64,000 nt of DNA from Pseudoxanthomonas suwonensis (GTDB lineage: Bacteria; Pseudomonadota; Gammaproteobacteria; Xanthomonadales; Xanthomonadaceae), in contig NZ_PDWP01000016.1 in assembly GCF_010093235.1 (NCBI RefSeq), positions 1-64,000 on the forward strand, written 5' to 3'. Numbering within the stretch: the first letter of the stretch is position 1; each line of letters begins with the position of its first letter. Shown piece by piece: positions 7,907-59,927 of this stretch. The position numbers and the translations under genes were made by a program. Under the pieces are notes generated by a model that saw only the letters and a program-made list of their open reading frames with translations, had not been told where the DNA came from and searched no databases.

Positions 7907-8899
7907 ATGGCCGATCCGTTCCTGATCGCCGACATCGGCGGCACCAATGCCCGATTCGCGCTGGCCGATCCCAGCGCGTCCACGCCGCTGGTCGAGGACA
8001 GCGTGCGCGAGTTCGCGGTCGCCGAGTTCCCGTCGCTGGCCGAGGCTGCGCGCCACTACCTCGAGCAGGCCCAGGCCAGCGCCCGTCGTGGCGTGTTCGC
8101 CGTGGCCGGCCGCGTCGACGGCGACGAGGCGCGCATCACCAACCACCCGTGGGTGATCTCGCGTCCGCGCACCCGCGAGATGCTTGGCTTCGACCAGGTC
8201 CACCTGATCAACGATTTCGCCGCCCAGGCCATGGCCATCAGCCTGTATCGCGCCGAGGACGTGGTGCCGATCGGTGGCGTGTCCTGGACCCCGGCCCCGC
8301 CCAGCGAGCCTCGCACCTATGCCGTGCTCGGCCCGGGCACCGGCCTGGGCGTGGGCGGCCTGGTGGTACGTGACGGCCGCTGCTATCCGCTGGAGACCGA
8401 AGGCGGCCACGTCAGCTTCCCGCCGGGCACGCCGGAGGAGATCCGCATCCTGGAGATCCTGTCGGCGCAATTCGGCCGCGTCTCCAACGAGCGCCTGATC
8501 TGTGGCCCGGGCCTGGTCAACATCCACCGCGCCCTGTGCGAGATCGCCGGCCACGACCCGGGCCTGCTCGAGCCCAAGGACGTCACCGCCCGCGCCGCCG
8601 CCGGCGATCCGCTGTGCATGCGCGCGGTCGACGTGTTCTGCGCGGTGTTCGGCGCCATTTCCGGCGACCTGGTGCTGACCATCGGCGCCTGGGACGGGGT
8701 GTTCCTCACCGGTGGCCTGGTGCCGAAGATGCTGGACTCGCTGCGCCATTCCGGCTTCCGCCAGCGCTTCGAATACAAGGGCCGGTTCTCGCCGACCATG
8801 GCCCGCGTGCCCTCGCTAGCCGTGCTGCATCCGCATTCCGGCCTGCTCGGCGCGGCCGCCTACGCGGTGGACCTGGTCCGCCGGGAGGCCGCGGCATGA
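7907..8899 (+). CDS. glk: Glucokinase
   Basis: Glucokinase phosphorylates cytoplasmic glucose with ATP, feeding Zwf. The 330-residue protein starts with the ATP-binding segment ADIGGTNARFAL (residues 8-19) and contains the second phosphate motif LGPGTGLGVGG and the sugar-site EGGH, as in the bacterial Glk family. One base separates it from the zwf stop, and its own stop overlaps the pgl start (ATGA), so the three genes are translated as a block. Confidence 0.94.
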   Translation: MADPFLIADIGGTNARFALADPSASTPLVEDSVREFAVAEFPSLAEAARHYLEQAQASARRGVFAVAGRVDGDEARITNHPWVISRPRTREMLGFDQVHLINDFAAQAMAISLYRAEDVVPIGGVSWTPAPPSEPRTYAVLGPGTGLGVGGLVVRDGRCYPLETEGGHVSFPPGTPEEIRILEILSAQFGRVSNERLICGPGLVNIHRALCEIAGHDPGLLEPKDVTARAAAGDPLCMRAVDVFCAVFGAISGDLVLTIGAWDGVFLTGGLVPKMLDSLRHSGFRQRFEYKGRFSPTMARVPSLAVLHPHSGLLGAAAYAVDLVRREAAA

Positions 8900-9609
8900 A
8901 GGCCGATCCGCGCATCGAATGGATCGAGCACGCGGGCGTCGAGGCCTGGGGCGAGGCCATCGCGGCCGACATCCAGGCGGCGATCGCCGCCGACCTGTCC
9001 GCCAGCGGCCGTGCCCGTGCCCTGCTCTCCGGCGGCACCACCCCGGCGCCGGCCTACAGCCGGCTGGCGCAGGCGCCGCTGGACTGGTCGAAGGTGAGCG
9101 TCGGCCTGGTCGACGACCGCTTCGTGCCGGCCGACCATCCGGCCAGCAATACGAAACTGATCCGCGAGAGCCTGCTGGAACGTGCGCCCGGCCTGCATTT
9201 CGAGCCGCTGGTGCGTGAAGGCCTGTCGGCCGCCGCCTGCGTCGAGGCCGCCAACCGCGATTCGGCCGGTGCGCAGGATCCCTGCGTGGCGGTGCTCGGC
9301 ATGGGCAACGACGGCCACACCGCCTCGCTGTTCCCCGGCTCGGTCGACCTCGACGCCGCGCTGGCCTCGCAGGACGACTACGCCGTGCTCGACGCCACCG
9401 GCTGCCCGGTCGCCGCCGAATGGACCACGCGCATCACCCTCACCCGCGCCGGCCTGGCCCGCTGCCGCCAGCACCTGTTGCTGCTGCGTGGCGAGGCCAA
9501 GCGCGAGGTACTGGAGCGCGCCCTGGCCGGCGACGACGTGCGTCAAATGCCGATCCGCGCGGTGCTGGGCCTGACCGCCAGCCCACTGCGCGTCCATTGG
9601 TGCGCTTGA
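8896..9609 (+). CDS. pgl: 6-phosphogluconolactonase
   Basis: Pgl hydrolyses 6-phosphogluconolactone from Zwf to 6-phosphogluconate. The 237 residues show the NagB/Pgl fold motifs LLSGGTTPAPAY, DDRFVP and LGMGNDGHTASLFPG. The start codon ATG overlaps the glk stop. The 120 bases to edd contain a 7-bp hairpin (CGGGGCG/CGCCCCG at 9643-9659) without a T-run, which may be an mRNA processing or pausing element. Confidence 0.94.
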   Translation: MKADPRIEWIEHAGVEAWGEAIAADIQAAIAADLSASGRARALLSGGTTPAPAYSRLAQAPLDWSKVSVGLVDDRFVPADHPASNTKLIRESLLERAPGLHFEPLVREGLSAAACVEAANRDSAGAQDPCVAVLGMGNDGHTASLFPGSVDLDAALASQDDYAVLDATGCPVAAEWTTRITLTRAGLARCRQHLLLLRGEAKREVLERALAGDDVRQMPIRAVLGLTASPLRVHWCA

Positions 9610-9729
9610 TGCGCGGCCCTCCGCCCGCACCTGTCTGATAGTCGGGGCGGTACGCCCCGCTTCGCCGTCCTGCCTTCGCAGCCCGCCCGCGCCCTTCCGC
9701 GGCGCCAGCTCCGCCTCCCCTGGAACGCC

Positions 9730-11643
9730 ATGAGCCTGCATCCCAAGATCGAAGCCGTTACCGAGCGCATCCGCCAGCGCAGTGCACCGTCGCGCGCCGC
9801 CTACCTGGCCGGCATCGACGAGGCGGTCCGCAACGGTCCCAACCGCACTCCGCTCAGCTGCGCCAACCTGGCGCACGTGTTCGCCGCCTGCGGCGAACAC
9901 GACAAGGCCCGCCTGCGCGGCGGCGCCACGCCGAACCTGGGCATCATCACCGCCTACAATGACATGCTCTCGGCGCACCAGCCGTACGAGCACTATCCGG
10001 AGCGGATCCGCAGCCTGGCCCGCGAGCTGGGCGCCACCGCGCAGGTCGCCGGCGGCGTGCCGGCGATGTGCGACGGCGTCACCCAGGGCCGCGGCGGCAT
10101 GGAGCTGTCGCTGTTCTCGCGCGACGTGATCGCCCAGGCCACCGCCATCGGCCTGAGCCACGACGCCTTCGACGCGGCCCTGTACCTGGGCATCTGCGAC
10201 AAGATCGTGCCGGGCCTGCTGATCGGCGCGCTGGCCTTCGGCCACCTGCCGGCGCTGTTCGTGCCGGCCGGCCCGATGCCGCCGGGCATTCCCAACAAGA
10301 AGAAGGCCGAGGTGCGCGAGCGTTACGCCGCCGGCGAGGCCACCCGCGAGGAGCTGCTGGAAGTCGAGGCGCAGTCCTACCACTCGGCCGGCACCTGCAC
10401 CTTCTACGGCACCGCCAATTCCAACCAGGTCCTGCTGGAAGCGATGGGCGTGCAGCTGCCGGGCAGCTCGTTCATCAACCCGAGCACGCCGCTGCGCAAG
10501 GCGCTGGACGAGGAGGCCGTGCGCCGCGTCCTGCAGATGACCGCGCTGGGCGACGACTACCGTCCGCTGGGCCGCCTGATCGACGAGCGCGCCATCGTCA
10601 ATGCGATCGTCGCGCTGATGGCCACCGGCGGCTCGACCAACCACACCATCCACTGGATCGCCGTGGCCCGCGCCGCCGGCATCGTCCTGACCTGGGACGA
10701 CATGGACCAGATCTCGCAGGTGGTACCGCTGCTGGCGCGCGTGTATCCGAACGGCGAGGCCGACGTGAACCGCTTCCAGGCCGCCGGCGGCGTGCCGTTC
10801 GTGTTCCGCGAGCTGCTCGACGCGGGCCTGATGCACGACCTCACCACCGTGGTGCCGGAAGGCATGCGCGCCTACACCCGCGAACCGCGGCTGGAGGACG
10901 GCAGGCTGTCCTCCGCGCCCTCGGCGACGGTGTCGGCCGACGAGACCGTGGTGCGTACCGTCGCCGCGCCGTTCGAAGCCCAGGGCGGCCTGCGCCTGCT
11001 CCGCGGCAACATCGGCCGCGGCCTGATCAAGCTGTCGGCGGTCAAGCCGGAGCACCGCTGTGTCGAGGCCCAGGCGGTGGTGGTCGATGCGCCGCAGAAG
11101 CTCAACAAGCTGCATGCCGCCGGCGTGCTGCCGCGCGACTTCGTCGCGGTGGTCACCTACCAGGGCCCGCGCGCCAACGGCATGCCCGAGCTGCACTCTC
11201 TGGCGCCGCTGCTGGGCATGCTGCAGAACCAGGGCCGCAAGGTGGCGCTGGTCACCGACGGCCGCCTGTCAGGCGCCTCCGGCAAGATCCCCGCGGCGAT
11301 CCATGTCACCCCGGAAGCCGCGCGCGGCGGTCCGATCGGCAAGATCCGCGACGGCGACATCGTCCGCCTGGACAGCGAGGCCGGCGTGCTGGAAGTGCTG
11401 GTCGACGCGGCCGAGTGGAACGCGCGCGAAGTCGCGCCCAACACCAGCCGCCCGGCGCACGACCTGGGCCGCAACCTGTTCGCCTACAACCGCGCCAACG
11501 TCGGCCCGGCCGACCAGGGCGCGACGTCGATCTCCTGCGGCCCGCCGGCGCACGACGGCACCGCCTGGGACTACGACGCCGAGTACGAGCTTGGCGGCCG
11601 GGCCGAGGCGGCCCTGGCGCCGCACGCCGAGAAGGACAACTGA
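9730..11643 (+). CDS. edd: Phosphogluconate dehydratase
   Basis: Edd dehydrates 6-phosphogluconate to 2-keto-3-deoxy-6-phosphogluconate, the first committed step of the Entner-Doudoroff pathway. The 637 residues match the IlvD/Edd family, whose members carry a 4Fe-4S cluster. Conserved stretches include [29 protein letters not shown] and [17 protein letters not shown]. The ATG is preceded by a GGA element. It lies between pgl and eda in the same direction. Confidence 0.97.
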
Positions 11644-50331: not shown

Positions 50332-51267
50332 TTACAGCAGGCTGGCGCCGGGGCTGTCCAGTGGCGCGACCCAGGCCTGGCTCTCCAGGCCGGCGGTGGC
50401 GAACGCGGCCTGCACCGCCGGCGCGGCGGCCTCGGCGCTGGCGCGGTTCTCGAACCAGCCGAACACGCTGGGGCCGGCGCCGGAGATGCTCGCGCCCATC
50501 GCCCCGCCATCCAGCATCGCCGCCTTGGCCGCAGCGAAGCCGGGGATCAGCGCGGCGCGGCGCGGTTCGACCAGCACGTCGCGCAGGCCCGCGCGCACCA
50601 GCGTGGCATCGCCGGCATGGCAGCCGGCCAGCACCAGGGCCAGGTTGGCGCTCTGGGCCACGAACCCGGACAGCTCGTAGCTTCCGGCCAGCGCCTCGCG
50701 CGCCCTGCGTGTTTCCAGCACGGCTTCCGGATGCACCAGCAGGCTGTGCCATTCCTCCGGCACCGGGATCCGCACCAGGCGGTCGGCCGTGGCCAGCACC
50801 AGGCCACCCAGCAGCATCGGGCCGATGTTGTCGCCATGGCGACCACCGCTGGCCACCGCCTCGCCTTCCAGTGCGAACGGATACAGCGCGTGGCGGGGCA
50901 GCGGCCGATCCAGCAGCGCGTTGGCCGCCACCAGTGCGCCCACGCAGGACGCGGCCGAGCCGCCCATGCCCGAGCCCAGGGCGATGCCCTTGTCGATCTC
51001 GACCTCGAAGCCCAACGGCAGCTGCAGGGCGCGGCGCATCGCCTCCAGGGCCACGCCGGCGGTATTGCGCGGGGCTTCCAGCGGCAGCGGATGGGGGGCG
51101 CCGCGGATCTCGCGGATCCGCACTTCCGGCTCGGCGATGCGGCGCACCGTGACCGTGTCGCCGGCGCCGGCCAGCGCAAAGCCGAGGATGTCGAAGCCCA
51201 CCGCGGCATTGCCGGCCGAAGCGGGCGCGAAGGCCGTGGCCTGGCGCGGCATCGGATCGGCCGTCAC
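50332..51267 (-). CDS. thrB: Homoserine kinase
   Basis: ThrB phosphorylates homoserine, preparing the ThrC substrate. This GHMP kinase of 311 residues has the ATP loop [20 protein letters not shown] and a C-terminal [14 protein letters not shown] chose the GTG at 51267 because it overlaps the thrA stop as GTGA; an ATG at 51252 is in frame, five codons later. Confidence 0.93.
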
Positions 51268-53786
51268 AGGCGCGCTCCGCGGCCGGCGGCCACCCGCAGC
51301 AGGTCGGCGAACACGCCGGCGGCGGTCACCTCGGGACCGGCGCCCGGCCCCTGCACCACCAGCGGATTCTGGCAGTAGCGGCGGGTGGTGAACTGGACGA
51401 TGTTGTCGGTCAGGCGCAGGTTGGCGAAGGCGTGGTCGCGCGGCACCTCGACCAGGCCGACCGAGGCCTTGCCCTGGGCATCCAGGCGCGCGACGTAGCG
51501 CAGCACGCTGTTGTTGGCCTGCGCCTGGGCCAGGCGCGCGGCGAAGCCGGCGTCGACCTCGTGCAGGCGCGCCATGAAGTCGTCGACGCTGGACTCGCGC
51601 AGCGAGGCCGGGACCAGGCTCTCGACCTGCACGTCCTCGATGCCCAGCTCGCATCCGGCCTCGCGCGCCAGGATCACCAGCTTGCGGCCGACGTCGGTGC
51701 CGGAAAGGTCGTCGCGCGGATCCGGCTCGGTGTAACCCAGCGAACGCGCCTCGGCCACCAGCTTGGAGAACGGCACGCTGCCGTCGAAGCGGTTGAACAG
51801 CCAGGCCAGGGTGCCGGAGAAGATGCCCTCGATCGAGATGACCTTGTCGCCGGTGTCCAGCAGGTCGCGCAGGGTCGAGATCACCGGCAGGCCGGCGCCC
51901 ACCGTGGCCTCGTAGCGGAAGCGGGCGCCGCTGCCCTGGGCCGCGGCGCGGATCTCGCGCCAGCGCTGCAGCGGACCGGAGCCGGCCTGTTTGTTCGGGG
52001 TGACCACGTGGATGCCGGCGGCCAGCCACTGCGCGTAACGGTCGGCCACCTGCGGGCTGCCGCTGCAGTCGACGATCACCATGTGCGGCAGGTGCGAATC
52101 CAGCAGGTGCGCGGTGAAGCGGTCCAGGTCCAGCGGCTCGCGCGCGGCGGCGTAGGCCTCGCGCCAGGCGCCCTCGATCCCGCGCGGATCCAGCAGCTGG
52201 CGGCTGCGCGAGGCAATCGCGCGCAGGCGCAGGTCCAGTCGCGCGCGCTCAAGCAGCTTGCCGCGCGCGGCCATCAGCTGGTCCAGCAGCGCGCCGCCGA
52301 CGTTGCCCGGTCCGATCACGCCGACGGCGAAGGTCTGCGGCGACAGCCAGAAGCCGGCATGCGCCGCGCGCAGGGCACGGGTGGCCTGCTCGCTGTCGAT
52401 CGCCACCGAGATGTTGCGCTCGGACGAGCCCTGGGCGATGGCGCGGATGTTGACCTGGGCGCGCCCCAGCGCCCCGAACAGGCGCGCAGCGATGCCCGGC
52501 TGCCCGGCCATGCCGTCGCCGACCGCGGCCAGCACGCTGATGCCCGGCACGTGCTGCACGCGCTGCACCTGGCCGATCGCCAGTTCGTGGGCGAAGGCGT
52601 TGAGCAGCGCCGCCTGGGCCCGCTCGGCGTCGTCCTGGCGGACTACGCAGCAGATCGAGTGCTCGGACGAGCCCTGCGAGATCATCACCACCGAGACCCG
52701 CGCGTTGCGCAGCGCGGCGAACACGCGCTCGGCCGTGCCGGGCACGCCGATCAGGCCGGTGCCCTCGAGGTTCACCAGGGCCAGGTTCGGGCTCAGGGTC
52801 AGGCCCTTCACCGGACGGCTCGGATCGCGCCCGGCGCTGATGCGGGTGCCCGGGTGCTCGGGCTGGAAGGTGTTGCGGATGACGATCGGCAGGCCGCGCT
52901 CGATCGCCGGATACATGGTCTGCGGGTGCACGACCTTGGCGCCGAAGTAGGCCAGCTCGCAGGCCTCGTCGTAGCTCAGCGACTCCAGCTGCACCGCCTC
53001 GGGCACCACCCGCGGGTCGGCCGACAGCACGCCGTCCACGTCGGTCCAGATGTGCAGTTCGTCCGCCTCGAACAGCGCGGCGAAGATGGCGCCGGAGAAA
53101 TCGCTGCCATTGCGGCCGAGCGTGGTGATGCGCCCCTGCGTATCGCGCGCCACGAAGCCGGTGGCGACCACGCGCCGCTGCGGGTTCGCCTTGCGCCACT
53201 GCGCCAGCTTCTCCGCGCTGCGCGCCCAGTCCACGTCCACGCCCAGCTCGCCGTGGCTGACCACCAGCACGTCGCGTGCGTCCAGCACCGCGCAGTCCTC
53301 GCCCAGCGCGCGCAGGTGCAGGCCCAGGAGCTGCGCCGAGTACACCTCGCCCAGGCCCTGCACCCGCTGCAGCACTTCCTCGGGCAGGCTGCCGAGCACA
53401 TGCACCGCTTCGAGCACGCGCGCCAGCTCGTCGAAGCGCTGGTCGATCCATTCCACCGCCTCGCCCGCACGCTCGGCCAGCAACGCCACCGCCGCGCTGC
53501 GATGCCGTGCGCGCAGGTCGTGCCAGGCCTCCTCCCAGTCCGGCGCGCCCTCGCATTCGGCGACGGCCGCCGCCTGGGCCAGGCCGATCAGGGCGTCGGT
53601 GACGCCCTTCATCGCCGAGACCACGGTGACCTGGACCTCCTCGTCCCGGGCCAGCAGCAGGCCGGCGACGTGGCGGTAGCGCTCGGCGTCGGCCACGGAG
53701 GTGCCACCGAACTTGTGCACCACGGTGCGGACGGCGGCGGACGGTTTGCTCGATTCGGACGGACTAGCGACAGCGGCAGACGACAT
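51264..53786 (-). CDS. thrA: Bifunctional aspartate kinase / homoserine dehydrogenase I
   Basis: ThrA catalyses the first and third steps of the aspartate-to-threonine pathway. The 840-residue protein has the kinase motif KFGGTS (25-30), ACT regulatory domains in the middle, and the dehydrogenase half beginning [17 protein letters not shown]. The length is close to E. coli ThrA (820). GAGG lies 6 bases before ATG 53786. The leader region upstream encodes a Thr/Ile-rich peptide, so attenuation is expected. The intermediate enzyme Asd is encoded at the right edge of the window. Confidence 0.96.
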
Positions 53787-53832
53787 CGGAGACCTCGGTT
53801 GTGAGGCCCAGCGCGCGTATCGGTGCGGGTCG

Positions 53833-53857
53833 CCCCGCGCCTGATCCAGGTGCGGGG
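53833..53857 (-). promoter_or_regulatory. Hairpin in the thr leader, candidate attenuator stem
   Basis: CCCCGCGCCTG (53833-53843) pairs with CAGGTGCGGGG (53847-53857) with one mismatch and loop ATC. It lies 16 bases after the leader peptide stop and 47 bases before thrA. There is no T-run, so termination would be atypical or Rho-assisted. Confidence 0.5.
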
Positions 53858-53872
53858 CCGTGGGTTTCGCAG

Positions 53873-53986
53873 TTACACGAACACGACGGGCCGCACCGGG
53901 CGGGTAATACCGGTGGCGGTGGTAATCGCGGTAATGCCGGCGGCCGAAGCGCACGCATGCGTCCGCCGCGGAGGCGGAAGGAACAT
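53873..53986 (-). CDS. thrL: thr operon leader peptide
   Basis: A short frame of 37 codons ends MFLPPPRR... GITAITTATGITRPVRPVVF V-stop. The run GITAITTATGIT has five threonine and three isoleucine codons in twelve, as expected for a peptide that senses Thr-tRNA and Ile-tRNA (compare E. coli ThrL). It sits 86 bases upstream of thrA. The start is uncertain: ATG 53986 or ATG 54013, neither with a clear ribosome binding site. Confidence 0.72.
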   Translation of the reverse strand: MFLPPPRRTHACASAAGITAITTATGITRPVRPVVFV

Positions 53987-54023
53987 CGCAGTGGTGGCGT
54001 TGGGCTTCGACATGGGCGTCAAG

Positions 54024-54052
54024 AGGACACGATGGCGAGGGCCCGTGTCAAG
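54024..54052 (-). promoter_or_regulatory. Candidate thr operon promoter
   Basis: On the minus strand a perfect -35 TTGACA (54052-54047) is followed after 17 bases by TGTCCT (54029-54024), a weak -10. Transcription would start near 54017, just upstream of the leader peptide. The surrounding sequence is less GC-rich than the window average. Confidence 0.4.
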
Positions 54053-54270
54053 TGTTGCAACGCCACATCGATCGAAAATTTCCGTTGCGAAAGAAACAGT
54101 TAGCAGCGGACCGCGCCGCGCGCCCAGGCCCGGCATGCGGAAATCGCGTGTCCCGGTGCGTCGCCTCGCGTGGCCACCGCTCGCGTGGCACGCGACCGGT
54201 GGATGCCGGCCACGTGGTTTCCGGTCGGCGCCGCCACAGGTGCGGCAGCTGCTCCGCGGGCTGTGGGCTG

Positions 54271-54633
54271 CTACGGCCGCGTCTCGGTGACTTCCTCCAG
54301 CACGCCCCAGCGCCCACCGCACTGGCCCACCAGCAGCGAAAGGGACTGGAGTAGCGCTTGAGCTCCGAATAGCGCGTGGCGCTGATGCGCACGTTCGCGC
54401 CCTCCCGCGCGCGTATGTGATCCGCGAGTAGGTGCGCGCCGGTTCCCGTCCGGATAGATCCGCGTGCTGCGGACGACCGCCGAATCGCAATACAGGTCCG
54501 CCAGGCCCGTATCGAACGCGTTCCCGCGCTTCTGGTATTCGGCAAACAGCGCCTGCGCTGCGGCCCTGGCATCCTGCGCGGCAGCGACCGGACACAGCGC
54601 GATCAGCAGGAAAAACGCGGCAACGCGGCTCAT
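54271..54633 (-). pseudogene. Decayed gene for a small exported protein
   Basis: The 5' part encodes a signal peptide (MSRVAAFFLLIALCPVAAAQ) and FAEYQKRGNAFDTGLADLYC plus RIYPDG. Later sense-like stretches lie in different frames: TYSRITYAR in the third frame, EGANVRISATRYSELKRYSS in the second, and LSLLVGQ...RWGVLEEVTETRP back in the first, ending at 54271. Three frame changes and an apparent shortening between RIYPDG and YSRITY indicate a degenerated reading frame. The product family is unknown. The start overlaps the stop of the small membrane-protein gene (ATGA). Confidence 0.65.
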
Positions 54634-54812
54634 GCGCCCACCCGCCCTGCTGGCGGAAGCACCACGATCAGCAGCGTCGCCAACGGGCCGACAAGGATCG
54701 AGCCCAGCCACCAGCCCAGTCCACTGCGGCCCTTGGACTGTGCCAAGCCCGCATTGATCAACGATAGCGTGCCCCAACCCACGAAGAATCCCGAGTCCGC
54801 CTGCATCCTCAT
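54630..54812 (-). CDS. Small membrane protein
   Basis: A 60-residue protein with two hydrophobic segments, FFVGWGTLSLINAGLA and GWWLGSILVGPLATLLIVVL, joined by a short basic loop (QSKGRSGLG). An AGGA element lies about 12 bases before the ATG. It is coupled to the decayed exported-protein gene. Function unknown; a role near the peptide exporter (for example immunity) is possible but unsupported. Confidence 0.6.
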   Translation of the reverse strand: MRMQADSGFFVGWGTLSLINAGLAQSKGRSGLGWWLGSILVGPLATLLIVVLPPAGRVGA

Positions 54813-55257
54813 TTCCCGAGCTGGTCCTTGTCCACGGAATATCGCTGATAAAGGCATCCGCAGCCAACAGCCGGATGCCGACCGCAGGGACCGGAGGACG
54901 CCACTTCAGTGGCCGTAACGCCCTTCGAACGAGATGGAGACGGCCAAGTCAGGGGCTTCCCGTGCCCCGCCCTTACGGGGCGGCGAATAACCGACGCGTT
55001 CTGCGACATACGGGGTCCGCCACGGAAGCACCAACACCAGATGGGTCTGCCCGCAGGCCGGACTCCCGCCGCGGCCGGGCATAGCGGTGGCAACAGCCTC
55101 AGGTCGCCGCGAAACGCTCGCACGGCTCGGGCGTGGGACCTGCCGCGGCCAGCAGTCCAGCCAGGCCCCGGTGGCTTCGTCGCGCACCAGCGGCCTGGAG
55201 CCGGACGTCACTCCAACCAGTCCGCCAACCACATGGCGGAGTTCTTCGTGGCCCGTG
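54813..55257. other. Non-coding stretch downstream of the peptide exporter
   Basis: No gene is supported. The open frames lack ribosome binding sites and family features. A hairpin GCCCCGCC...GGGGCGG lies near 54964-54985, downstream of the exporter read on the minus strand, but without a T-run. Confidence 0.4.
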
Positions 55258-57372
55258 TCAGCCCGGCACGGGCACCAGCCCCCTGTCCTCGACCTCGTTC
55301 CGCAACTGTTGCACGATCCGCCCCTGGTCCATGACCAGGACGCGGTCGGCGCTGGCGATGGTTTCCGGGCGATGGGCCACGATCACCTTGGTGAGCAGCA
55401 GACCCTTGACCGCCTCGTTGACCAGGCGCTCGTTGGCCACGTCCAGGTGGCTGGTGGCCTCGTCCAGGAACAGCAGCTTCGGCTGCCGGTAGAGCGCGCG
55501 CGCCAGGATGATGCGCTGCTTTTGTCCGCCGGATAGTGAGCTGCCCATGTCGCCAATCAGGCCGTGGTAACCCATGGGCATGGCCACGATGTCGTCGTGG
55601 ATCGCGGCGAGCCGCGCGGCCTGCTCGAGCCGCTCCTGGTCGGCCTGCGGATCGAAGAAGCTGATGTTGTCGGCGATACTGCCCGCGAACAGCTGGTCGT
55701 CCTGCATGACGGCTCCAACGACGACGCGCAGGTTGCGCGGCCCGACCTTCTGCAGGTCGTAACCACCGATGCAGATGCGCCCCTCGCTGGGGCGCAGCAA
55801 GCCAAGCATCAGCTTGAGCAATGTTGTCTTGCCCCCGCCCGAGGCGCCCACGATCGCCACGGATTCGCCGGGCTCGATGGTGAAGCTGCAGTCCCTGAGG
55901 ACCCACGGCTCCCCTTCCCCGTAGCGGAACGACACCCCTTCCACCTCGATGCGCATATCCGGCGGCGTTGGCAGTTCGGGCAACGCCTCGTCCTCCTCCG
56001 GCTCCTGCAGCACGATGTCGGCCAGCCGCTCGCCATGCAGCCGCAGCATGCGGAACTCCACCCATCTGTCGACCAGCGCCGCCATCCGTCCGGCGAACTG
56101 GTCCTTGTATGCGAGATAGGCGATCAGCATGCCCACAGAGAAAACGTTCTGAAGTGCCAGCGCGGCGCCGATCCAGATCACCGCGATGCGTTCGACGCCG
56201 AAGACCAGCTGGCTTGCGCCACTGAAACCCAACCCCATGCGCGCCAGGCGGACCTCGTGGTTGACCGTCTCGACGAGCAGGTTCTCGTAGGCGGCGCGCC
56301 GACCGGGCTCGCCGCCGGCAACCTTGAGGCTCTGCATGCCCCGCAGGGATTCGAGCAGGTGGCTTTGCTGCTTCGCCGCGGCGACCAGCTGCCGCTCCGT
56401 GCCCTCCCGCACCGGCCTGTAGGCCAGTGCGCGGATTCCGATATACACGCCCACCGCGGCAAGCGTGACCAGTGCGAGCTTCCAGCTGTACAGAAGCATC
56501 AGTGCCAGGGTGGCCACGGCCATCAGCCCATCGATGATCGCTTCCACGAAGCTTGTGGTGAGCGTCTTCTGGATCGCCTGCACCGACGACATCCTCGAGG
56601 TGATGTCACCAAGGTGCCGCTTCTCGAAGAAGTCCAGGGGCAGCCGCAGCAGATGGGCGAACACGTTTCCGGCCCATTGCATCCCCAGGCGGCTGGACAG
56701 GTAGACGACGGACCAGCCCCGCAGCACGCCGATACCGACCTGCAGCAGGAGCGCAAGGCCGAAACCCAGGCCAAGCACTGTCAGCAGTTCCCGGTCCGCC
56801 GATACCAGTACCTGGTCGACCACCCACTGCATGAAGAACGGGGCCAGGACCACGAACACCTGCAGGGCCACCGAAAGCGTGAGCAGCTGCGCGAGCGCAG
56901 CCCAGAGCCCGCGCACAGGACCGGTGAGCTGGCTTGCACGCACGCTCGGAGCACTCCTGCGCGGCTTGAATCCAGGGCTTGGCGCAAGCTCCAGGGCGAT
57001 GCCGGTGAAGTGGTTCGAGACCTCCTGCAACGACAGGCGCCGCTCGCCGATGGCCGGATCCATGATGACGGCGCCGGAGCGCCCAACCCTGGCCAGCACC
57101 ACGAAATGGTTGAAATCCCAGTGCAGGACGCAGGGCAGGCGCAGCTTCCCCAGCTCATCCAGTTCCAGGCGCAAGGGACGCGCCGCCAGGCCGAGCTGTT
57201 GCGATACCCGGATCAGCTGGTCCAGACGTGCACCTTTCAACGAAAGCGGGAACTTCCGGCGCAGTTCCGCCAGCGAAACAGACAGGCCATGCGCCGCGCA
57301 AACCATCGCCAGCGACGCCAGTCCGCATTCGGCCGCTTCCGCCTGGAGCACGGGTCGCAGCTTGCCCAGCAT
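55258..57372 (-). CDS. Peptidase C39-containing ABC exporter (PCAT, CvaB-like)
   Basis: Such transporters cleave double-glycine leader peptides and export the mature peptide. The 704-residue protein has an N-terminal C39 peptidase: Q10, C16 in AECGLASLAMV, H89 in HWDFNHFVVL and D105 in MDPAIGERRL. Six membrane helices follow (about 150-430), then an ATPase with Walker A GASGGGKTT (near 505), signature LSGGQKQR and Walker B LLFLDEATSHLD. GGGAGGA lies 7 bases before ATG 57372. It is cotranscribed with an HlyD adaptor and a small peptide gene. Confidence 0.94.
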   Translation of the reverse strand: MLGKLRPVLQAEAAECGLASLAMVCAAHGLSVSLAELRRKFPLSLKGARLDQLIRVSQQLGLAARPLRLELDELGKLRLPCVLHWDFNHFVVLARVGRSGAVIMDPAIGERRLSLQEVSNHFTGIALELAPSPGFKPRRSAPSVRASQLTGPVRGLWAALAQLLTLSVALQVFVVLAPFFMQWVVDQVLVSADRELLTVLGLGFGLALLLQVGIGVLRGWSVVYLSSRLGMQWAGNVFAHLLRLPLDFFEKRHLGDITSRMSSVQAIQKTLTTSFVEAIIDGLMAVATLALMLLYSWKLALVTLAAVGVYIGIRALAYRPVREGTERQLVAAAKQQSHLLESLRGMQSLKVAGGEPGRRAAYENLLVETVNHEVRLARMGLGFSGASQLVFGVERIAVIWIGAALALQNVFSVGMLIAYLAYKDQFAGRMAALVDRWVEFRMLRLHGERLADIVLQEPEEDEALPELPTPPDMRIEVEGVSFRYGEGEPWVLRDCSFTIEPGESVAIVGASGGGKTTLLKLMLGLLRPSEGRICIGGYDLQKVGPRNLRVVVGAVMQDDQLFAGSIADNISFFDPQADQERLEQAARLAAIHDDIVAMPMGYHGLIGDMGSSLSGGQKQRIILARALYRQPKLLFLDEATSHLDVANERLVNEAVKGLLLTKVIVAHRPETIASADRVLVMDQGRIVQQLRNEVEDRGLVPVPG

Positions 57373-57644
57373 GATGTTTCCTCCCTGCGTATCGCATTCG
57401 CGCCGTAGGCCTCGGCGCCATGCGCGCAGCCGTTGGAGCGTGGCTGTCATTCCGCAGCAGCCTTGCCGCACCAGTCTTCCGGTGACGGCCGTGCGGGTCG
57501 GCGGATCGACGTGCAGGCGCGCAGGCACTGGGCCGTGGCGGCGGATGGAAGCCACCTGCCGCCACGGATCCACGACTGCGCATCACGTCCGCGGCAACCC
57601 CGGAGTCGGCGTCCGGGGGCCGCACACGCTCCGCAGGCTGCCGC

Positions 57645-57809
57645 TCACACCGTGTCGTCACCGGGCTCCCGTTCCCGGAGGACGGCGACCAGTTTCAACC
57701 ACCTGTCATGGAGGTAGCCCAGGCCACCTCCATGCACGGGCCGGAGGGGCGTCGCTACCACGACGCCTTCCGAGATGACGGTGATATCCGGATGCTCCAG
57801 CGTTCTCAT
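57645..57809 (-). CDS. Candidate exported peptide precursor with atypical double-glycine leader
   Basis: A 54-residue frame lies between hlyD and the C39 exporter with a strong AAGGAGG at 6-base spacing. Its start MRTLEHPDITVISEG fits the double-glycine leader pattern counted from G15: L at -12, acidic D at -8, I at -7, I at -4, G at -1. The -2 residue is E instead of G/A/S. Cleavage there would release a 39-residue peptide beginning VVVATPLRPVHGGGLGYLHD. An alternative GG lies at HGGG. It has no cysteines. The substrate role is inferred from gene position and leader shape. Confidence 0.65.
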   Translation of the reverse strand: MRTLEHPDITVISEGVVVATPLRPVHGGGLGYLHDRWLKLVAVLREREPGDDTV

Positions 57810-57871
57810 ATGCGCCTCCTTGCGCGTTGCGGCACGTTCCCCGTGCCATGGGCTCCCCCGGTCCACTCCCC

Positions 57872-59134
57872 TTACCCGGCCATCCGTCCCCTTACCGTCC
57901 AAAGCGGTTCCAGGAGCCATTCGACGAGCCTGCGCTCCTCGCCGAGGATGTCCGCTTCCAGCAGCATCCCCGGCCGCAACGCCTCCGCCTTTCCATAGGC
58001 ACGGATGTCCTGCGCGGGAACGGCCACGGTCACGCGATAGAAGGGTTCGAGTGCCTGTCCGCTGCCGAGCAGCGCAACCAGCTCGTCGGGTCGCAGGGCG
58101 CTGCGGCTGATGCGGGTGACGGTACCGCGCTGGTGTCCGAACTTCTGGTACGGGAAGGCCTGGTAGCGGAGCATCACCGCATCCCCCGGGGCGATGAATC
58201 CAATCGCGCGACTTGGCACGAGCAGCTCCGCTTCCAGGCGCCCCTCGCCTGGCAGGATCGACAGCAGCGGCTGTCCTGCCTGGAGCGATTGTCCGGTCTT
58301 GGCCAGCTGGGTGGACACGATCCCGCCGACCGGCGCGCTCACGACCAGTTCGCCCCTTGCGCGCGTCTCGACCTGTTCCTGCTCCAGTGCCGCCAGGTCG
58401 CGCAGGTGCCCGGCTTCGAGGGCATCACGCTGTGCCGGGAGCTCGTCCAGCGCCTGCTGCAACTGGACAAGCAGGCGGCGCGTGGCGACCGCCTGGCGCT
58501 CGAGCGCCTGGACTTCGGCCAGCTGGGCCAGTGCAGTCGACTCCTGTTGCCTGATCTGCAGGAGACTCACGTACCGGTCGTCCTGCAACTGGCGCAGCCT
58601 ATGCAGGGTTTCCCGCGCAAGCCGTACCTGCGCCCGGCGCGTCGCGATCTCGGCCTCCACCTGCGCCAGCTCCTGGCGCGCCGCGCCCAGCTGGTTCCGC
58701 AGGCCGGCGTCCTGGGCCGAAAGCTGCGCCCTCTGCGCGACATAAGCCGCTTCCAGCCCCTCCCGCCTGCGGCGCAGGCGCTCCTCGAGCGCGGCCAGCG
58801 TATCCCCGGCCTGGCGGGTGACGCGCGGCACTGCAACGGTCGCCAGTAGCTGGCCAGCCTCCACGCGTGCGCCCTCGCGCACGTCGACCGCGACAACCAC
58901 GCCCGTGGCGGGTGCGACCACCATGGCCATGCCATCGGTCGGCACCAGTTGCCCGGATACCGTGGAGCGCCGGGTATAGGTCCCTAGCAGCAGGAACAGC
59001 AGCACCGCCGATGCCGCCAGCAGCGCGGCCGCGGTGAGCAGCCACAGTCCCAGCGGCTGCGCGAGCGAGACGGCGCCCAGCCACTGGCCCCGCCTGGCCT
59101 CCAGCGCTTCCCTGCGGAACAGCTCCAGGGTCAT
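57872..59134 (-). CDS. HlyD-family membrane fusion protein (CvaA-like)
   Basis: The periplasmic adaptor links the C39 exporter to an outer-membrane channel. The 420-residue protein has an N-terminal cytoplasmic stretch, one membrane helix (LWLLTAAALLAASAVLLFLL), a lipoyl-type segment (VAPATGVVVAVDVREGARVE), a long coiled-coil hairpin (about 110-270) and a second lipoyl half (VSAPVGGIVSTQLAKTGQSL). The ATG at 59134 overlaps the stop of a 43-codon frame. The outer-membrane partner (TolC) is not in the window. Confidence 0.92.
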   Translation of the reverse strand: MTLELFRREALEARRGQWLGAVSLAQPLGLWLLTAAALLAASAVLLFLLLGTYTRRSTVSGQLVPTDGMAMVVAPATGVVVAVDVREGARVEAGQLLATVAVPRVTRQAGDTLAALEERLRRRREGLEAAYVAQRAQLSAQDAGLRNQLGAARQELAQVEAEIATRRAQVRLARETLHRLRQLQDDRYVSLLQIRQQESTALAQLAEVQALERQAVATRRLLVQLQQALDELPAQRDALEAGHLRDLAALEQEQVETRARGELVVSAPVGGIVSTQLAKTGQSLQAGQPLLSILPGEGRLEAELLVPSRAIGFIAPGDAVMLRYQAFPYQKFGHQRGTVTRISRSALRPDELVALLGSGQALEPFYRVTVAVPAQDIRAYGKAEALRPGMLLEADILGEERRLVEWLLEPLWTVRGRMAG

Positions 59135-59558: not shown

Positions 59559-59927
59559 ATGCAGCTTTCCATGAGGATAAGGATCGCGCGTCAGCGGGCG
59601 CGCCTGTCGCAGGAGGCCCTTGCCGCGCAGCTCGGCGTGACCCGGGGCGCGGTCGCCAACTGGGAATGTTCGGTGGGTGTCATGCCTGCGACCACGCGCC
59701 TGGAGCGCCTTGCCCAGGTCACCGGGGTCTGCTTCGAATGGCTGGCCACCGGCCGTGGTCCGGTTGCCTACGAGAAGGCGGCCGAGCCCACGGCGGAAGG
59801 GGAATGGGTGGCCGACCCGGCCGAGCGCCGCCTGGTCCAGGCTTACCGGGCCTCCAGCCGGCCGGTGCAACGGATGCTGGAACGCCTGGCCGAGATCCAG
59901 CTGGTCGGCGAACGCCGGCGGGCCTGA
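59559..59927 (+). CDS. XRE-family helix-turn-helix regulator
   Basis: A 122-residue protein with an N-terminal Cro/CI-type DNA-binding domain: RIARQRARLSQEALAAQLGV then TRGAVANWECS. A C-terminal helical part follows without an obvious ligand domain. AGGAGG lies 5 bases before the ATG. It is divergent from the hlyD-peptide-exporter operon across 296 bases and is the likely local regulator. Confidence 0.87.
   Translation: MQLSMRIRIARQRARLSQEALAAQLGVTRGAVANWECSVGVMPATTRLERLAQVTGVCFEWLATGRGPVAYEKAAEPTAEGEWVADPAERRLVQAYRASSRPVQRMLERLAEIQLVGERRRA

Follow-up and report, generated by a model that had tools for sequence, protein, structure and literature searches.

The window analysed here, a stretch of 64,000 nucleotides from Pseudoxanthomonas suwonensis (contig NZ_PDWP01000016.1, positions 1 to 64,000), holds a peptide-export cassette in which the genes for a HlyD-type membrane fusion protein, a 54-residue precursor-like protein and a C39 peptidase/ABC exporter follow one another in one direction, with a divergent XRE-type gene ahead of them (Table 1). 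This arrangement had been described in an initial annotation made from the sequence alone; all four genes lie where it had placed them, and Pfam confirms the three large proteins. Its reading of the small gene is also borne out. The strong ribosome binding site (RBS) it had reported is AAGGAGG, five bases ahead of the ATG, and the 15-residue leader, which is of the microcin V (MccV) type, has L at -12, D at -8, I at -7, I at -4 and G at -1, the sole deviation from a double-glycine leader being E at -2 (codons GAA GGC). It is the likely fate of this EG leader in the C39 domain of its exporter that concerns us here.

Table 1. Features of the export cassette and its surroundings (window coordinates)
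Feature	Position	Strand	Details
C39 peptidase/ABC exporter (PCAT), 704 aa	55258..57372	-	ATG start behind GGGAGGAAACATC
54-codon precursor-like gene	57648..57809 (stop codon 57645-57647)	-	leader MRTLEHPDITVISEG, EG at -2/-1
EG site, codons 14-15 (GAA GGC)	57765..57770	-	read from the sequence
Internal HGG site, codons 27-28 (GGA GGT)	57726..57731	-	V-12, L-7, V-4; prolines at -5 and -8
HlyD-type membrane fusion protein, 420 aa	57872..59134	-	HlyD_3, PF13437, 2e-20
Divergent XRE-type repressor-like gene, 122 aa, helix-turn-helix (HTH) only	59559..59927	+	HTH_3, PF01381, 7.5e-09
GG-precursor remnant, EELRHVVGG followed by LVGVTSGSRPLVRDEATGAWLDCW...	55049..55257	-	homologous to the fifth precursor of locus L074, tblastn 1.5e-10

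The cassette and its leader

The exporter matches PF03412 (Peptidase_C39, 2.1e-33), PF00664 (ABC_membrane, 4e-37) and PF00005 (ABC_tran, 2.6e-31), and the HlyD-type protein matches TIGR01843 of NCBIfam at 4.5e-44, under the curated cut-off. A TolC-type outer membrane factor is encoded elsewhere in the genome (C11; TIGR01844, 400 bits with a cut-off of 225). Judged by its predicted proteins, the cassette is a Pseudoxanthomonas-type version of the class II microcin (MccV-like) type I secretion system. The C39 domain aligns throughout with LahT147, the nearest solved structure (6mpz, 2.8e-22), and with PCAT1, and the cysteine, histidine and aspartate columns are kept. On the exporter branch of the window, polarised against four relatives, 134 substitutions are synonymous and 68 non-synonymous (27 and 33 on the L074 branch); the exporter is intact and under purifying selection. 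In the exporter alignment, which holds 59 sequences after removal of L101 and L117 for stops inside the match, L089 has glycine at the position of the catalytic cysteine (C17G, alignment numbering) in an otherwise open frame, and could be a non-cutting C39-like version. Two other kinds of system were considered and set aside. For NHLP/proteusin export the exporter reaches 519 bits with TIGR03796 (cut-off 853) and the adaptor 69 bits with TIGR03794 (cut-off 156). Peptide quorum sensing of the RRNPP type is defined by a regulator with a peptide-binding tetratricopeptide repeat (TPR) part; that part is missing from the 122-residue regulator here, and no TPR model is among the 14 Pfam families listed.

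The exporter is matched in 100 of 247 family genomes at an E-value of 1e-100 or less, and among the best 80 of 554 matches in the exporter scan the top four named loci are from Pseudoxanthomonas, at 77-82% identity. A record titled Bacillus subtilis (L253) carries an exporter 68% identical to that of the window, possibly through contamination. Sixty other exporter loci were compared for synteny and precursors. In the nearest relative, L074, the orthologous exporter is 84% and the HlyD-type protein 76% identical. The hlyD gene is found in 54 of the 60 loci, preceding the exporter in 39 and following it in 15, and where it precedes, precursors are often found between the two. An XRE homologue occurs in 18 loci, being divergent and upstream of hlyD in 14 of these, and is 62-77% identical in six loci that share the truA-trpF and/or trpB neighbourhood. 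In 6 of the 60 loci the truA-trpF pair lies upstream, accompanied by hlyD and the exporter (marker translations of trpF and thrA overran the gene ends and served for synteny only).

To place the EG leader among others, leaders were collected from 161 loci (the window, L074-L133 and L179-L278) with the pattern M[RKNQYTIS]x[LMIVF]xxx[EDQ][ILVMF]xx[VI]x, the next two residues being left free, in open reading frames (ORFs) of 25-149 residues behind an RBS. Some places are present twice in this sample, so distinct proteins were counted. The 2008 RBS-bearing ORFs screened gave 91 distinct leader proteins, of which 74 end in GG, 12 in GA and one in GS; these 87 agree with what the initial annotation had held to be the normal cut end for C39 exporters. 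Since nearly all the unconstrained ends proved to be GG or GA, the pattern picks genuine leaders with few false ones, although the census alone cannot clear each odd leader individually. The four odd ends occur once each, and are EG in the window and SG, CG and GE elsewhere (L087 4936, L092 5519 as reoriented, and L082 242, with cut sites AGE, SCG and SSG). Glycine stands at -2 in 88 of the 91 leaders and glutamate only in that of the window; a charged residue at -2 is found in none of the 90 others. Scored without its last two positions, the window leader reaches 8.0 bits and outranks 6% of the 90 others; in full it comes to 6.2 bits, under all 90 (minimum 9.0), so that it is in register but the poorest-scoring of the set. 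In 18 more distant exporter loci (L181-L198) five leaders were found, in three loci. The system itself is of a known kind, and at the sequence level the leader variant is real.

It is probable, on this evidence, that the 54-codon gene is a real, lineage-specific gene of the precursor type. Its free-ended match in the census, and the absence of any leader-like ORF of at least 30 residues from 20,000 dinucleotide shuffles of the 499-base gap between hlyD and exporter, whether or not an RBS was required, make a chance ORF unlikely; it is also the single match in the 64-kb window to the leader pattern with G, A or S at -1. The protein has no family match in Pfam or NCBIfam; the initial annotation had recognised no bacteriocin resembling its mature part. 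As results that would refute its reading, that annotation had named the lack of a conserved homologue beside C39 exporters and a different conserved precursor gene nearby in relatives, and the findings here went in both these directions. At a meaningful E-value only the protein itself was found among the 60 relatives, and no homologue was found in 395 family genomes (drawn from a larger group) or in a broader genome-contig scan, in which its own genome was perhaps left out. The next-best match among the 395 (E 0.0027, 42% over 31 residues) lies within a 594-residue open frame and was judged to be chance. At E < 1e-3 the gap DNA resembles none of the 60 other loci, and in relatives this slot is occupied by other precursors, of the GG type. 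AlphaFold2, given the 54 residues alone, places a helix at 29-46 with a mean predicted local distance difference test score of 63.5, which was not used as proof. The hydrophobic moment showed no marked amphipathicity in the window segment, 619 of 1000 shuffles being as high. The initial annotation had overlooked a second GG in the protein, HGG at residues 27-28, for which positions -4, -7 and -12 are hydrophobic.

Cargo elsewhere in the genome and in relatives

In the genome, a draft of 66 contigs, PF03412 has a single match, at this exporter. A leader profile found candidate precursors at C46:3662 (MRELNICEFEVVSGG, E 9e-4), C66:110135 (E 0.35) and C66:112050 (E 0.74); a fourth match, on C11 (E 5.7), lies inside a long frame and was discounted. 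Between the C66 pair are two further precursors, MSLRTLSLQELTLVSGG and MHTLSMQDCFRVSGG, the latter found by eye without an RBS check and the others re-found in a separate leader scan. All five end in GG, and each is linked by BLASTP (E 1e-7 or better, the shared leader contributing) to a precursor that adjoins an exporter in a different locus; a pair beside the exporter of L114 is similar to two of them. The genes lie at L179 9136-11299 (C66 at about 110.1-112.3 kb in the genome itself) and L180 3662-3850, and the stretches of C66 and C46 around them contain no hlyD or exporter match. Because its C39 domain is the sole one found in the genome, and five GG precursors lie elsewhere, the exporter is most likely a GG machine for which the EG peptide would be one odd cargo.

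A linked array of GG precursors appears to have been lost from the cassette. Behind the exporter of L074 are five tandem GG precursors of 49-54 residues (8847-9961 in reverse-complement coordinates), Cys-free, mostly Pro-rich and with a tryptophan in each, to which single copies in L077, L078 and L104 are related. In the window there is, directly behind the exporter and missed by the initial annotation, a remnant of the fifth, with no in-frame start codon between an upstream stop at 55385 and the leader and with the frame shifted towards its 3' end. Homology between the two loci jumps from the stop codon of the exporter to the third codon of the fifth precursor (L074 9803; junction alignment), and relative to L074 the window is without about 1.04 kb and with it four whole precursors. 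The missing array is apparently a deletion in the line of the window; expansion in L074 is the formal alternative, and the deletion is favoured because the remnant is headless. Downstream of the cassette (51264-55257) the window has thrA where trpB is found in 8 of the 60 loci, which suggests a rearrangement break near the deletion. In the same region (54271-54867, minus strand) a small ORF at 54630-54857, hydrophobic by eye, is followed by one with an apparent signal peptide, possibly frame-broken; both are without a Pfam match and without a homologue in the 60 loci, and NCBIfam is also blank for the first.

Between the 54-codon gene and the exporter no cognate immunity gene was recognised, nor any match to the partner proteins of L077 and L078. 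The latter are secreted-looking, mutually related proteins situated between precursor and exporter (L077 5450-6545 and L078 5884-6243), one of them overlapping the precursor gene, and are candidate immunity or partner proteins; the one tested is without a Pfam family. In the L074 array no immunity gene is evident by eye, and the two precursors tested have no Pfam or NCBIfam family. This short Pro-rich array may be the more interesting lead.

The mature part of the 54-residue protein was also compared with the L074-type short precursors. Its score against the 10-row profile A2 is reached by none of 2000 shuffles, the rows of A2 having been picked by eye for a Pro-rich/helical look and so leaning towards the window. 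Against a 5-row profile 11 of 1000 shuffles reach its score, and against an 8-row profile 12 of 1000, while an unrelated precursor from L092 stands at 24 of 1000 with the 5-row profile. The fit to these precursors is strong with A2 and weak with the other two profiles. In the related peptides there is a glycine at the place equivalent to HGG (PGG, PSG, WTG), ahead of the C-terminal segment.

Cutting at the EG site

We suggest, with a probability of about 0.55, that the class II microcin-type secretion system of the window acts on GG cargo encoded elsewhere, and that its local, lineage-specific precursor docks in the exporter but undergoes little or no cutting at EG. The exporter would now work mainly on the unlinked GG precursors. 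The local leader, keeping the docking residues L-12, I-7 and I-4, would have had its -2 glycine replaced by glutamate, for which a single transition (GGA to GAA) suffices; the peptide would then enter the C39 domain and be cut inefficiently, if at all, and the gene would be a precursor on its way out or one whose product is exported at a low level only. Poor cutting is to be expected because the C39 cleft is narrow at the scissile site. In PCAT1 it is very narrow there, which explains the specificity for GG (PMC6959990). Positions -4, -7 and -12 are required by LahT150, which tolerates changes at -5 and -8 (PMC6363468), and in microcin PDI the change G17A lowered cleavage and G17P or a double alanine abolished it (PMC5311971). 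Of the two alternatives offered by the initial annotation, a microcin-like or signalling system with a variant cleavage site or a substrate that is cut poorly, the second thus appears the likelier. The microcin-like C39 cassette with a leader-type precursor stands, whereas a system built on a variant site is not supported, the peptide being an orphan and the slot in relatives being held by GG precursors. The small gene beside the exporter is probably a cargo gene restricted to this lineage, perhaps a failing one, rather than a sign of a new secretion system. A glycine-to-aspartate mutant at -2 has reportedly been described for colicin V; it is not used as support here.

Several points weigh against this interpretation. 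Codon usage of the small frame is uninformative, at -0.01 bits per codon compared with 0.28-0.30 for hlyD and the exporter, and another frame gives -0.02 and a reverse frame 0.10. The SG, CG and GE variants share their loci with GG or GS precursors, which would fit tolerated variation as well, and in the excerpts of the literature on C39 cleavage no test of an acidic residue at -2 was met. Service to the unlinked precursors is deduced from a single C39 domain in a 66-contig draft, and the direction of change, from glycine to glutamate, is likewise an indirect reading because no homologue of the protein was found. Selection may still keep the gene, since its frame, unlike that of the plainly broken other local precursor, is open behind a strong RBS.

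That open frame would also suit a working variant site, where adaptation of the C39 domain to glutamate at P2 would allow a linear peptide of 39 residues to be set free. The window C39 domain deviates at three columns conserved in at least 90% of exporters (A26C, R41K and A58S, alignment numbering), against a mean of 1.5 per exporter and none in the nearest relative; by our reading of the alignment A58S is on the helix whose A55 and I59 contact the substrate in PCAT1, roughly one turn past them, and alanine at -2 is tolerated in microcin PDI (PMC5311971). As a hint of adaptation these deviations are suggestive at most, however, for L079 also has three, and the same exporter probably also serves the GG precursors of the genome. 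With no charged residue at -2 in any other leader, and with the narrow cleft of PCAT1 (PMC6959990), we regard a working EG site as unlikely, if next in order to poor cutting. Less likely again is a true cut at the internal HGG28, which would make a 28-residue leader and release the 26-residue GLGYLHDRWLKLVAVLREREPGDDTV, the EG region then being an N-terminal extension or a skipped first leader. Here V-12, L-7 and V-4 with GG supply what LahT150 minimally requires, the acid at -8 being dispensable for that enzyme (PMC6363468, PMC10885120); such a hydrophobic trio is present at just 12 of 258 internal G[GAS] sites of other precursors, and the core score is reached by 2 of the 258. The microcin PDI precursor McpM, moreover, is cut twice, yet its internal GG at 26-27 is unused (PMC5311971). 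The prolines at -5 and -8 fall within the stretch that forms a two-turn docking helix (PMC6363468), the core score of 4.3 is below both the 6.8 of the EG site and the 7.5 of the lowest true leader, and in a scan of 72 leaders 65 are 15 residues long and none exceeds 19 (the pattern being blind beyond about 22). The glycine could also be a mere hinge, as the PGG, PSG and WTG of the related peptides suggest.

Two further explanations we consider improbable. The ORF could be a chance or non-protein feature of the gap, as the want of homologues in the family genomes and the genome-contig scan, the dissimilar gap DNA, the uninformative codon usage and the lowest leader score would allow; the shuffles, the sole leader match in 64 kb, a leader length and register as in the family, and the precursors that relatives hold in the same gap make this very doubtful. 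Hardly to be expected, too, is a pseudo-substrate, uncleavable or cleaved slowly, that is encoded in cis with the exporter, sits in the C39 docking groove and so controls whether, or in what order, the scattered GG peptides are exported. The docking residues are kept and the cut site lost, the gene lies between adaptor and exporter with the GG cargo genes elsewhere, and docking and cutting are separable, because a catalytically dead C39 exporter still binds the leader and has been used so in pull-downs (PMC6959990). For an orphan gene with no conservation and a weak leader score, however, such a function is difficult to sustain. We know of no precedent for it, no search for one having been made. 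We would therefore place poor or no cutting at EG ahead of a working EG site, this ahead of HGG28, and a decoy or a chance ORF last.

Should poor or absent cutting at EG be correct, the cassette would show, in nature, the failure of a linked precursor alongside retention of the exporter, presumably owing to cargo encoded in trans. If EG is cut after all, the mining rule of GG, GA or GS, which four of the 91 leaders break, misses real cargo. Either way, the neighbours of the exporter would be a poor guide to cargo in this genome.

Comparison with known systems

Among the publications listed for the subject, those for Pseudoxanthomonas together with microcin included, none was recognised, judged by the listings, as dealing with this cassette. 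LahT, PCAT1 and ComA act on Gram-positive substrates, either ribosomally synthesised and post-translationally modified peptides or pheromones, and differ from the present system in that no modification enzyme was recognised beside the window cassette. The closer likeness is to the CvaA/CvaB/TolC system of microcin V (colicin V), which combines a C39-ABC exporter, a fusion protein and TolC with a 15-residue signal peptide (PMC10231218). Unlike MccV and the class IIa microcins, the window has EG in place of GG or GA and a protein without cysteine whose mature part is not Gly-rich, and close to its small ORF an immunity gene was not recognised; its cassette is chromosomal and XRE-linked, and the GG cargo genes are unlinked. 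In its letters the MccV leader presumably resembles the leaders of these loci.

Microcin PDI provides a parallel for the two possible sites of the window precursor, as McpM has two consecutive leaders, with 17-18 (GG) and 35-36 (GA) both cut (PMC5311971). The first site of McpM is canonical; that of the window precursor lacks a glycine, and its second site bears prolines within the docking-helix stretch. For Xylella fastidiosa a review describes export machinery together with three neighbouring genes of the MccV-like kind, whose signals are of the double-glycine type (PMC10233263). The putative class II microcins of Xanthomonas, Pantoea and Erwinia come from related bacteria with related machinery, and the filter used there admitted signal peptides 15-20 residues long with GG, GA or GS at the end; in the excerpt of that study Pseudoxanthomonas is not named, and an EG candidate such as that of the window would fail its filter (PMC13174018).

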